Shown: piece by piece, positions 60,504 to 64,000 of the stretch | Layout of the letters: the number at the start of each line of letters is the position of its first letter | Position numbering within the stretch: the first letter of the stretch is position 1 | From: Aestuariivivens marinum | GTDB taxonomy: Bacteria > Bacteroidota > Bacteroidia > Flavobacteriales > Flavobacteriaceae | Length of the DNA stretch: 64,000 nucleotides | Direction: 5' to 3' | NCBI RefSeq assembly: GCF_022662175.1 | Contig: NZ_JAKMCR010000003.1 | Coordinates: 248,001-312,000 of the forward strand | The notes under the pieces: model-generated | What the model saw: only the letters and a program-made list of their open reading frames with translations | Told to the model about the DNA's origin: nothing | The model's database searches: none | Position numbers and translations under genes: made by a program

Positions 60504-61589
60504 TTAATCCACAAACATGCTCTTGTCCAATCCAGGTACAATCCGCAAAGCGTTTTTATAATATACCTTTTTTAATACTTCGTCGGGTAAATCCATACCA
60601 TACATAGGCCAAAACGCATGGTACTTTTTATGGTAAGGAAAGTATTCATCAGCTGTTTCCAATACTCTAAAATAAGTTGGAAACTCTTCAGGTTTCCAAC
60701 TATCCTTACCAAACAGAATCCTATCTTGGTATTTTATAAAAAAAGCTTTGGCAAATCGTGGTTGCCTTCCCAATTCAGCAATAATGGCAGCTATACCCAC
60801 ATTCATATTGGGGATTTCATCAAGCAATTTACCCAATGCTCCTAAGTCATTTGCAAACCAGCCCATATGTGCATTGATAAAGGTGGTTTTAGGATGCTTC
60901 TTAAACATATTATGTTGTTCGTTTATAATTTGTTCCCAAGGAACCGGATTATTAGCATCACGCTTACGCCTGGGGTGAGTCTTTAGTTCCAGCCAACGTT
61001 CATTATCAGCATTAAATTCATCCCAAAAGGGTTTAGGATCTGCCGCATGGATTAAAACAGGAATTCCCAGTTCGCTACACGTTTCCCAAATAGCTTCTAA
61101 ACGCACATCATCAATAGCCAAGCGCTTACCGTCTACATCTTTGTTATACATGCCCAAGCTCTTATAAACTTTTAAGCCTCTAGCCCCTTGCTTTACATCT
61201 TCCTTGAGTTGGCCCACGGTTTTTTCTATCCATCCTGGCGCTCCAGCTCCATCAAAATCAATATTAGCAAACACTACAAACCTATTGGGATAGTTATTTT
61301 TTATATTTTCTACTGCTTGTTTTAAATGATTACCAGACCGTCCGCTTAAATTTACCATGATTTGCATGTTAAGAGTATCCATGGCTGCAATAACTGGCGA
61401 TAAGTCTTGAGTAGGCATTCTATATTGATGTCCATGAATATCAATAAATGGATATTTGGCACGCTTTACAACCTTACCAGGTACCACCAATGTTGATTTA
61501 GGGTTATATTCTTCAAACGACATCTCTTGTGATATTGAAAAAAATGGTATTGAAACAGATATTAATATTAATAACACGAATGTTTTCAT
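60504..61589 (-). CDS. Exported amidohydrolase-family protein
   Basis: 361 residues with a signal peptide (ends ISQ). TIM-barrel features: FIDIHGHQYRM (HxH, here HGH), ARGLKVYKSLG, VLIHAADPKPFW, FINAHMGWFAND, and LFGKDSW with the Asp. This fits the amidohydrolase 2 family, acting on an unknown amide, lactone or decarboxylation substrate in the periplasm. Convergent with the Nramp gene; divergent from moeA. Confidence 0.88.
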   Translation of the reverse strand: MKTFVLLILISVSIPFFSISQEMSFEEYNPKSTLVVPGKVVKRAKYPFIDIHGHQYRMPTQDLSPVIAAMDTLNMQIMVNLSGRSGNHLKQAVENIKNNYPNRFVVFANIDFDGAGAPGWIEKTVGQLKEDVKQGARGLKVYKSLGMYNKDVDGKRLAIDDVRLEAIWETCSELGIPVLIHAADPKPFWDEFNADNERWLELKTHPRRKRDANNPVPWEQIINEQHNMFKKHPKTTFINAHMGWFANDLGALGKLLDEIPNMNVGIAAIIAELGRQPRFAKAFFIKYQDRILFGKDSWKPEEFPTYFRVLETADEYFPYHKKYHAFWPMYGMDLPDEVLKKVYYKNALRIVPGLDKSMFVD

Positions 61590-61727
61590 TTGTCAATAGG
61601 CTTTTATAGAGTCTAAAAATACGCCACAGGATATTGATAAGCTACTTTTTAAGACGGCTTTAACAAGTATATATGCCTTAAAGTATTTAGGAACCAGTGG
61701 TATGAGTAACAAAAGTATTTTAAGTTA

Positions 61728-61743
61728 AATGATATTTATCATT
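61728..61743. promoter_or_regulatory. Crp/Fnr-like palindrome upstream of moeA
   Basis: AATGATA-TT-TATCATT, a perfect 7-2-7 inverted repeat; its core ATGAT-ATTT-ATCAT fits TGAT-N4-ATCA of Crp/Fnr operators. Its centre is about 42-44 bases upstream of the predicted transcript start, the usual spot for a class II activator. A direct copy of TTATCATT recurs at 61791-61798. Confidence 0.5.
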
Positions 61744-61762
61744 AAAACAAGAAAATATAAAG

Positions 61763-61786
61763 CGTTATATTTGTTTAGATATAACG
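61763..61786. promoter_or_regulatory. ModE-type operator before moeA
   Basis: CGTTATAT (61763-61770) and ATATAACG (61779-61786) form perfect 8-bp arms around 8 bases. The E. coli modA operator has the same 8-8-8 layout and nearly the same arms (CGTTATAT and ACATAACG). It lies 15 bases before the moeA ATG and contains the -7 box, so a bound repressor would block RNA polymerase. Confidence 0.75.
61766..61773 (+). promoter_or_regulatory. Candidate -7 box of the moeA operon inside the ModE box
   Basis: TATATTTG is an exact TAnnTTTG match and starts inside the left arm of the ModE-like operator. The -33 region is only TTA, so the promoter may depend on an activator at the upstream palindrome. Confidence 0.58.
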
Positions 61787-61801
61787 ATTATTATCATTTA
61801 A

Positions 61802-62983
61802 ATGATTTCTATAAAAGAAGCCATACAGCTTGTTAAAAGCAATTCGGATACCTTAGGTATAGCCAAAGTGGGATTAAATGAAGCCTTTGGATATCTGGTA
61901 GCGAATGATATAAAATCTCCAATAAACATGCCACCATTTAGACAATCGGCTATGGATGGTTACGCCATAAACATAACCGATAAACTTTCTTATAAATTTA
62001 TTGGAGAGATAAAGGCGGGAGATGGCTACCAACCCATTTTAAATACAGGTGAGGCAGTTCGGATTTTTACGGGAGCCCCCGTTCCAGATACAGCCAATGC
62101 TGTTGTGATGCAGGAAAAAATAAAAATTAAGGATGGTAATATAATACTTGAACATGAAATTCCTCAAGGACATAACATCCGCTCCCTAGGTGAACAGGTG
62201 AAGAAGGGCGACTTGGCCTTAAAAAAAGACACTAAATTAACACCGGCTGGTATTGGCTTTTTAGCTTCTTTGGGAATTACGGAAGTAGATGTTTACAAAA
62301 AACCAAGAATTGCTGTTATTACCACAGGAAATGAGCTTATTGAACCTAACCAACCTCTTGATCATGGCAAAATTTATGAGAGTAATTCACATATGCTAAC
62401 TGCCGCACTTGCGAATTTGGGTCATAATAATGTTTCCGTTTACAAAGTAGAAGATAATTATGATAATACTTATCAGCTTTTAGATAAAACCATAAACAAT
62501 TCCGATTTGGTACTGATTACTGGAGGTATCTCGGTTGGTGATTACGATTATGTAGGGAAAGCGTTAAATGAATTGCAGGTTGAAGAAATATTTTATAAAG
62601 TCGTGCAAAAGCCCGGTAAACCGCTCTACTTTGGAAAAAAAGCCGAGACCCTCATTTTTGCCTTACCAGGCAATCCGGCCGCAGCTCTAACCTGTTTTTA
62701 TATATACGTTTATATTGCCTTGCAAAAGATTACAAATAATCAACAGAATGAATTACCTCGGATACAAGCTGAATCCCTTTCAAACTTTGAAAAGAAAGGT
62801 GACAGACCCCAATTTTTAAAAGCGATTTATTTAGATGGGAAAGCAGAACTATTAGAAGGTCAAAATTCATCTATGTTACAAACCTTTGCGCTTTCCAACG
62901 CTTTGGTTTTTGTTCCGGCAGAGCAAAACCAAATCGCTATTGGTGATCCTGTTGAAACTATATTATTACCTATTGAATTATGA
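61802..62983 (+). CDS. moeA: Molybdopterin molybdotransferase
   Basis: 393 residues. MoeA motifs: PFRQSAMDGYAI, GEAVRIFTGAPVP, TGNELI, GGISVGDYDYV and the LPGNPAAALTCF loop. It inserts molybdate into molybdopterin (from MPT-AMP) to give Mo-MPT. First gene of moeA-modE-mobA-moaD, under a ModE-box promoter. Its stop overlaps the modE-like start by four bases. Confidence 0.97.
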   Translation: MISIKEAIQLVKSNSDTLGIAKVGLNEAFGYLVANDIKSPINMPPFRQSAMDGYAINITDKLSYKFIGEIKAGDGYQPILNTGEAVRIFTGAPVPDTANAVVMQEKIKIKDGNIILEHEIPQGHNIRSLGEQVKKGDLALKKDTKLTPAGIGFLASLGITEVDVYKKPRIAVITTGNELIEPNQPLDHGKIYESNSHMLTAALANLGHNNVSVYKVEDNYDNTYQLLDKTINNSDLVLITGGISVGDYDYVGKALNELQVEEIFYKVVQKPGKPLYFGKKAETLIFALPGNPAAALTCFYIYVYIALQKITNNQQNELPRIQAESLSNFEKKGDRPQFLKAIYLDGKAELLEGQNSSMLQTFALSNALVFVPAEQNQIAIGDPVETILLPIEL

Positions 62984-63318
62984 ACTACTCGATTAAAAGT
63001 AGAATATGGATTGAATCAAACGGGCATGTACTCTTAGGTGAAGGTCGTGTACAATTACTAAAAGCCATTGAACAAACCGGATCGCTCTCGAAAGCTTCTA
63101 AGACATTAAATTTATCCTATAAAAAAGCTTGGCACCTTTTGGATTCTATTAATCAATCAGCAAAAAATCCTGTGACCATCAACACTACTGGTGGTAAGGA
63201 TGGAGGGGGTACAATATTGACCAACTATGGGAAAACCTTAATCAGGGTTTTTGATGATATAAACCAAAATTGTTGGGAATTTTTGGATAGTGAATTAGAA
63301 AAAATGAAGAATTTATAA
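62980..63318 (+). CDS. modE: Single-domain ModE-type winged-helix regulator
   Basis: 112 residues. It matches the N-terminal DNA-binding domain of ModE: IWIESNGHVLLGEGRVQLL, then the helix-turn-helix TGSLSKASKTLNLSYKKAW, like the E. coli GSISQGAKDAGISYKSAW. The winged segment KNPVTINTTGGKDGGGTIL follows and the protein ends soon after, so the two molybdate-binding (TOBE) domains of E. coli ModE are missing. Overlaps moeA by four bases and mobA by one. Confidence 0.86.
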   Translation: MNYSIKSRIWIESNGHVLLGEGRVQLLKAIEQTGSLSKASKTLNLSYKKAWHLLDSINQSAKNPVTINTTGGKDGGGTILTNYGKTLIRVFDDINQNCWEFLDSELEKMKNL

Positions 63319-63908
63319 TGCTAGCAGTTAACAAAAGTAACATTACAGGAATTATTTTAGCGGGCGGGAAAAGTTCTAGAATGGGAACTGATAAAGGCCT
63401 TTTGAAGCTTAATAATAAACCTTTCACGCAATATATTATTGACGCCCTAAAGCCCTTAGTTTCTGAAATTTTAATTGTTTCCGACAATTTAAATTATGAT
63501 GTTTTTGGTTATAAAAGAATAGAAGATATTATTAAAGATGCTGGTCCCTTGGCTGGAATCTACTCAGGTTTGACTCATTCTAAAACCGATTATAACCTTG
63601 TACTAAGTTGTGATATCCCATTAATAAGTACCGAAGTGTTAAGGTGGCTTATAGAACATGCCAATGATTCTTCTGAAGTCATTCAAATCGAAAGCCATGG
63701 TAAAACCATGCCACTAATTGCACTTTACAGAAAAGAATGTTCTAGTATTTTTTTAAGCTTATTACAAAATGGTGAAAGGCGATTACGAAAAGCCGTTAGC
63801 CAATGCACCATTAAAACTATTAAACTGGATATGGATGATCATATTGTAACAGCAAACATAAATACTCAACAAGAATTAAAAGACATACAGAATGCATATA
63901 AATATTAA
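63318..63908 (+). CDS. mobA: Molybdenum cofactor guanylyltransferase
   Basis: 196 residues. Signature LAGGKSSRMGTDKGLLKL, with the nucleotide-binding GGKSSRMG, then DAGPLAGIYSGL and SCDIPLIS. It adds GMP to Mo-MPT to give MGD for DMSO-reductase-type enzymes. Its start codon shares one base with the modE stop; its last 17 bases overlap moaD. Confidence 0.94.
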   Translation: MLAVNKSNITGIILAGGKSSRMGTDKGLLKLNNKPFTQYIIDALKPLVSEILIVSDNLNYDVFGYKRIEDIIKDAGPLAGIYSGLTHSKTDYNLVLSCDIPLISTEVLRWLIEHANDSSEVIQIESHGKTMPLIALYRKECSSIFLSLLQNGERRLRKAVSQCTIKTIKLDMDDHIVTANINTQQELKDIQNAYKY

Positions 63909-64000
63909 ATATTTTGGGCAAATTGCTGAAGTTACCAAATGTGACGAAGAAATAATTTCTATTTCAAAAAACTTGGTTTCAGAACTAATTGCTTACTTGT
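63892..64000 (+). CDS. moaD: MoaD/ThiS-family sulfur carrier, 5' part (partial at window edge)
   Basis: The frame starts at ATG 63892 (MHINIKYFGQIAEVTKCDEE) and runs off the window. The beginning fits MoaD, the molybdopterin synthase small subunit; the GG C-terminus is outside. It starts inside mobA, so translational coupling is likely. Confidence 0.78.
   Translation, partial: MHINIKYFGQIAEVTKCDEEIISISKNLVSELIAYL

Follow-up and report, generated by a model that had tools for sequence, protein, structure and literature searches.

A predicted ModE-type operator overlapping a putative activator site and -7 box at the molybdenum-cofactor operon promoter of Aestuariivivens marinum

In E. coli, the regulator ModE carries two molbindin domains and controls modABC, as described in the accessible sections of PMC545781. 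The same sections describe single-domain ModE proteins in two Desulfovibrio species and in D. psychrophila and call the sensing mechanism of Desulfovibrio ModE not clear; for Desulfovibrio they also predict a different box, CGGTCACG-N14-CGTGACCG, and describe its mod cluster as containing a gene with a fused MOP domain. A paper on Geobacter metallireducens (PMC2700814, likewise used in part) was consulted for ModE architecture only. The regulator considered here, from Aestuariivivens marinum, resembles the Desulfovibrio and D. psychrophila proteins in having the DNA-binding domain only, but is distinct from the Desulfovibrio system, as far as the accessible sections portray it, in that the box retained is of the E. 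coli type and the genome yielded no TOBE match. With regard to promoter structure, a transcript map of F. psychrophilum places the sigmaA -7 box, TAnnTTTG, at positions -12 to -5 (PMC9723704, accessible sections).

The promoter analysed here precedes moeA within a window of 64,000 nucleotides, this being the whole stretch of DNA that was analysed, and comprises, together with the genes that follow, these features:

61728 to 61743, no strand assigned: Crp/Fnr-like site AATGATATTTATCATT, core TGA-N6-TCA, centre 61735.5, a predicted class-II activator site at about -42.5.
61763 to 61786, no strand assigned: predicted ModE-type operator CGTTATAT-N8-ATATAACG, 24 bp, assigned from conservation and from the E. 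coli modA operator.
61766 to 61773, plus strand: -7 box TATATTTG (TAnnTTTG), lying within the operator's left arm.
61778, plus strand: predicted transcription start, placed from the -7 box taken as -12 to -5.
61802 to 62983, plus strand: moeA, molybdopterin molybdotransferase; Pfam MoeA_N, MoCF_biosynth and MoeA_C over their cut-offs.
62980 to 63318, plus strand: modE-like gene, 112 aa, ModE DNA-binding domain only, assigned from TIGR00637, a fold match and an alignment.
63318 to 63908, plus strand: mobA-like gene, molybdenum cofactor guanylyltransferase; Pfam NTP_transf_3 over its cut-off.
63892 to 64000, plus strand: 5' part of a moaD-like gene that runs off the window, taken from the reading frames and named by reading.

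The start of the modE-like gene overlaps the stop of moeA. The best NCBIfam match of the moeA product is MoeA, below its cut-off, and the best NCBIfam matches of the mobA-like product are the MobA models, again below their cut-offs. The frames after the mobA-like gene, which continue in L005, resemble moaD, moaE, a moaC-type fusion and moaA (named by reading). A palindrome, ATCATTTAAATGAT, spans the moeA start codon at 61793 to 61806 and probably reflects chance plus coding.

The dyad reads CGTTATAT-TTGTTTAG-ATATAACG, and the perfect 8-8-8 inverted repeat that the initial annotation had reported at 61763 to 61786 is confirmed; it is the sole exact match in the 3.2-Mb genome. Its left arm holds TATATTTG at 61766 to 61773, as had also been proposed, and this octamer has the TAnnTTTG form of the -7 box of Bacteroidota sigmaA promoters. 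With this box set at -12 to -5, as in the accessible sections of PMC9723704, transcription would start at about 61778, which would put the centre of the Crp/Fnr-like site at -42.5 and the dyad at about -15 to +9, so that the predicted operator would cover both the -7 box and the start. All three elements are located, and the earlier view that activator site, -7 box and ModE-type operator follow one another in overlapping order stands. The moeA promoter, judged by eye, has no good -33 box, which is consistent with recruitment by a class-II activator. Class-II FNR-dependent promoters carry a TGA-N6-TCA core at about -42, and the corresponding core in AATGATATTTATCATT falls near -41.5, at a predicted -42.5 from the inferred start; the likeness lies in this position and in the presence of the same motif before the cbb3 oxidase and hemN genes of this genome, whereas the predicted site here would work with a Bacteroidota -7 box.

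The E. coli K-12 modA operator, CGTTATATTGTCGCCTACATAACG, can be written CGTTATAT-TGTCGCCT-ACATAACG and lies 19 nt before modA; it has the same 8-8-8 layout with one arm mismatch, in agreement with the near-identical arms claimed at the outset. The likeness to the E. coli system includes not only the 24-bp dyad, CGTTATAT-N8-ACATAACG, but also the DNA-binding fold and the helix and wing residues of the regulator. At about 24 bp and next to molybdenum genes, the flavobacterial dyad is an inverted repeat of the E. coli type, and ModE is predicted to bind it. In contrast to E. coli, the flavobacterial protein ends after its DNA-binding part and its gene belongs to the moeA operon. The mod genes of Aestuariivivens marinum, again unlike those of E. 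coli, are without the dyad, none being found with up to 3 mismatches in the mod transport cluster on contig C8. At about 13.1-17.5 kb (L151:4153-8500), this contig encodes a ModA-like protein (503 aa) in which two solute-binding stretches are seen, near a ModB-like permease and a 216-aa ATPase.

The next best matches to the dyad in the genome are two sites with 2 mismatches, both inside reading frames. At a laxity of 3 mismatches the pattern is unremarkable, with one match in the 64-kb window, where shuffles average 0.59, and 25 in the whole genome, where the reversed control pattern gives 50; the exact match is the distinctive feature. Of the 24 further matches with up to 3 mismatches, three were read (L136-L138), namely the pair with 2 mismatches and a single one with 3; all are intragenic, and on this ground a wider ModE regulon in this genome was rejected. 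The case for a dyad beyond chance rests mainly on its conservation.

A ModE-like protein is present in 70 of 199 Flavobacteriaceae genomes in a family search, and 23 named loci were drawn from the genome collection. At 85 of 93 loci moeA lies directly before modE, and removal of 4 duplicates leaves 81 distinct linked loci; L018, L045, L057, L058, L062, L079, L091 and L097 were set aside as unlinked, the criteria being that moeA is cut, absent or far away or that its match begins late. The last applies to L045; its moeA is preceded by a 2-mismatch site, and the locus was left out of the linked set. Within the 100 nt scanned directly upstream of moeA, a dyad with at most 2 mismatches occurs at 78 of the 81 loci (0 mismatches in 22, 1 in 37 and 2 in 19), as against 0 of 4,050 shuffled upstream regions and 0 of 20 moeA upstream regions from 19 of the modE-less genomes, in which the best matches have 5 to 7 mismatches. 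The conservation among relatives on which the initial annotation had made its case depend is borne out by these counts. In that 100-nt stretch the three exceptions have best matches of 4, 6 and 7 mismatches. For one of them a 2-mismatch site exists at a greater distance upstream, for another a 1-mismatch site stands directly before modE, and in L056 the 4-mismatch site is the best. Among the 78 good sites the right arm is looser than the left, and the distance from dyad to start codon is 3 to 17 nt at 74 and 30 to 58 nt at the other 4. On the moeA strand, TAnnTTTG lies within the left arm of 60 of the 78 operators and the laxer TAnnTTT in 71, as against 0 for the mirror CAAAnnTA and 5 for the mirror AAAnnTA.

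Tallied per genome, a site within 2 mismatches of the dyad occurs at a molybdenum locus in 67 of the 70 modE-bearing genomes; the three not counted are G048, which is unjudgeable at a contig end, G127, with no site in the stretches read, and G031, with a 3-mismatch variant. Genome-wide, matches with at most 1 mismatch are found in 52 of 70 modE-bearing genomes versus 1 of 129 modE-less genomes, where two of the 52 match only away from molybdenum genes and the sole modE-less match is intragenic. Eight such forward matches lie away from molybdenum operons, 7 of them inside frames and 1 intergenic. The reversed control pattern matches in 29 of 199 genomes (counted by reading), so chance matches of such an AT-rich pattern do occur. 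In G118, moeA is unlinked from modE, yet the exact dyad is present at moeA, and in G177 the site lies directly before modE; in genus g128 of the Flavobacteriaceae, a dyad with at most 2 mismatches is near modE at 1 of 5 loci. As a separate observation, four loci with distant ModE-like genes have the dyad downstream of modE and not before moeA, exact in L183 and as 3-mismatch variants in L057, L058 and L123. A second ModE-like paralogue in G059 (L079 and L133), near a napA-like gene named by reading, has no dyad of up to 3 mismatches in the stretch read.

Across the phylum, 79 of 296 genomes gave a ModE-like protein in a search. Most of the long frames (about 270-350 aa) belong to one family, f17, which we take to be Chlorobiaceae, and short frames are found in the same class as Aestuariivivens marinum and in two other families. 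Among the 30 loci returned, the dyad is present with at most 2 mismatches at 3 of 15 f17 loci (exact in L192), and one same-class locus, L183, has it exactly. GTDB places green sulphur bacteria in Bacteroidota, and the title of a 2003 paper by Studholme and Pau names them. A ModE box in Bacteroidota in the wide sense would therefore not be wholly new. Among the matches listed by an open-access literature search, in which ModE is inseparable from the word "mode", none concerned a ModE operator in Flavobacteriaceae.

The 112-aa protein matches TIGR00637 with an E value of 2.8e-23, at 81.8 bits below the cut-off of 98.5, and phmmer with the ModE-like proteins matches 2ijl, 1o7l and 1b9m. Its AlphaFold model has a mean pLDDT of 91.1, and the best 10 Foldseek matches of this predicted model are ModE chains, including 1b9m, 1b9n, 1o7l and 2ijl; by alignment, a helix SYKxAW and a wing GGxxGGG are common to the ModE-like proteins and E. 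coli ModE. We predict a winged-helix DNA-binding domain of the ModE type, though the protein remains below the TIGR00637 cut-off. The putative ModE of Agrobacterium, 2ijl, is similarly short (110 residues compared), with best two-way TM-scores of 0.78/0.79 to the predicted model, but has no cysteine in the C-terminal part of the aligned stretch, where Cys98 is found here. Cys98 is the single cysteine of the 112-aa protein and is kept in 87 of 93 homologues.

A C-terminal molbindin (TOBE) region is absent from the alignment, the protein ending at 112 aa, and it is classed for this reason as a single-domain ModE-like protein and not as a full ModE. The ModE-like proteins are short across the 93 loci, with lengths of 95 to 114 aa when counting begins at the first aligned residue. 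A whole-genome search for the TOBE domain PF03459 found none, the positive control of the search working in 12 of 14 genomes, and a molbindin acting in trans was rejected on this result. Within the family, TOBE is present in 16 of 199 genomes; cross-reading shows modE in 5 of these 16, and the other 65 of the 70 modE-bearing genomes gave no TOBE match. Since the ModE-like protein is without a molybdate-binding domain, the notion of repression by molybdate itself may be wrong, and with no molbindin found in protein or genome, sensing probably works otherwise than in E. coli. Candidate signals are the status of the cofactor, relayed by MoeA or some other partner, and an alteration of the conserved residue Cys98. 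In Flavobacterium IR1, deletion of moeA is accompanied by increased MoaA, MoaC2 and MobA (PMC12758843, accessible sections), a result that fits feedback; the IR1 operon as listed in those sections is without modE, and the result is thus not counted as evidence for a ModE switch. Taken to its full extent, flavobacterial ModE might be a molbindin-free one-domain switch that has retained an ancestral operator and reads molybdenum-cofactor or redox status via Cys98, in the C-terminal helix, or via a partner such as MoeA, exerting feedback on cofactor synthesis rather than on molybdate uptake, with an oxygen-type activator at the same promoter; as a whole, this proposal is speculative and we consider it somewhat doubtful.

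The upstream motif TGAYN4RTCA occurs in 23 of 78 loci, its centre lying exactly 27 nt before the dyad in 15 (17 counting offsets of 25-27), with a second group of 7 matches at 76-81 nt before the dyad. In 200 rounds of shuffling, a mean of 0.39 loci had the motif and never one at 27 nt. With the exact offset in just 15 loci (17 at 25-27), most relatives are without the site. In the Aestuariivivens marinum genome, ATGAYN4RTCAT has 47 sites versus 20 for the reversed control, and TAnnTTT lies 29 or 30 nt from the motif centre at 22 of these 47 (21 hits at 29 nt and 2 at 30; other offsets mean 0.56, maximum 3), so that the spacing of 30 at moeA compares with 29 in 21 of 23 genomic hits. Phased sites precede hemN, ccoN (258 nt from the ccoN start) and cytochrome c-type genes, and such a site also precedes an fnr-like gene, there without a phased -7-like box. 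The remaining 25 of 47 sites are without such a box and about 14 sites are inside frames (by reading), for which reason many are probably not functional. The activator motif appears, by its spacing, to belong to a larger fixed-spacing set in the genome. The fixed 27-nt phasing in a subset of relatives and the nature of the motif-bearing genes here (hemN, ccoN and the fnr-like gene) both support the earlier assignment of AATGATA-TT-TATCATT, at 61728 to 61743, as a Crp/Fnr-like site.

The genome has four matches to the Crp-type helix-turn-helix (HTH) domain. A 225-aa Crp/Fnr protein encoded in L147 has cysteines at 4, 7 and 29 among others (by reading), and its best NCBIfam match is Fnr, at 91.6 bits versus a cut-off of 228. 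A literature search on FNR in Bacteroidetes returned no match. In 12 named relatives, the gene divergent from moeA is napA-like in 4 (L037, L040, L049, L050) and of the Crp/Fnr type in 3 (L045, L046 and L051; in L045 the gene is broken into two frames), all named by reading. A Crp/Fnr-like site about 50 nt upstream of the phased position is seen in L012, L013, L037, L050, L067, L068 and L070, and in L037 and L050 this farther site may serve the divergent napA-like gene. Elsewhere, a cluster of FNR-like sites on contig C6 (90-117 kb; L143 and L144) surrounds likely stress-protein, transporter and histidine-kinase genes (by reading) and includes a response regulator fused to a Crp-type domain. 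We also note a palindrome-like stretch close to TAAGTATTAATACTTA upstream of moeA that is common to L025, L027, L053 and L060.

Our preferred reading, to which we assign a probability of roughly 0.8, is that the promoter of this molybdenum-cofactor operon (moeA-modE-mobA and moa-type genes) combines three overlapping signals, namely an activator, a -7 box and a ModE repressor. The dyad could be a ModE operator while AATGATATTTATCATT is palindromic by chance or serves another factor, in which case the promoter would not be oxygen controlled. The exact offset of such a site is seen in no more than 15 of the 78 relatives, binding of FNR to AATGATATTTATCATT is a prediction in a genome with four Crp-type HTH matches, and the motif before the fnr-like gene is not phased to a -7-like box. 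We nevertheless regard this version as unlikely, as shuffled upstream regions never placed the motif at the 27-nt offset and the same motif stands before hemN and ccoN with a -7 spacing of 29, against 30 at moeA. Recognition of the dyad by a protein other than the ModE-like protein is improbable: AT-rich dyads are used by other regulators too, but this one is nearly identical to the E. coli modA operator and co-occurs with modE, even where moeA is unlinked, and with a site directly before modE in one genome.

E. coli ModE activates at some promoters and is annotated as a dual regulator, and the flavobacterial protein could likewise be an activator here; the position of the dyad over the -7 box in 60 of 78 loci (71 with the laxer box) is that of a repressor, and leaves activation with little likelihood. 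That the inverted repeat instead functions at the RNA level, as a hairpin or riboswitch of the moeA leader, is suggested by its closeness to the start codon, 3 to 17 nt away at 74 of the 78 loci. Given a -7 box in the left arm, transcription would begin within the dyad and leave that arm untranscribed. Moreover, the arms are kept even at 30 to 58 nt from the start codon (4 of 78), and Rfam gives no match up to E 1 in 61500-62100, by which a Moco riboswitch or other RNA element in the leader was rejected; we consider an RNA function highly improbable.

Under the preferred reading of an activated and ModE-repressed promoter, a Crp/Fnr-family activator, most likely an FNR-like protein of the genome, would bind AATGATATTTATCATT at about -42 and recruit RNA polymerase in class-II fashion, the polymerase using TATATTTG as its -7 box. 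The short ModE, as the product of the second gene of the operon, would then bind the 24-bp dyad over the -7 box and the predicted start, and its occupancy would block the promoter, amounting to negative autoregulation of cofactor synthesis.

New here are the wide distribution of the box in the family, the loss of the sensor half from its regulator and the membership of the activator motif, as judged from spacing, in a larger fixed-spacing set. Many Flavobacteriaceae retain an E. coli-type ModE operator with a regulator that no longer has its sensing half, which turns the puzzle of single-domain ModE sensing into a small, testable system of one operator, one promoter and one conserved cysteine. 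In addition, an FNR-like motif placed at a constant distance from the -7 box of Bacteroidota would be useful for predicting low-oxygen promoters in Flavobacteriaceae.
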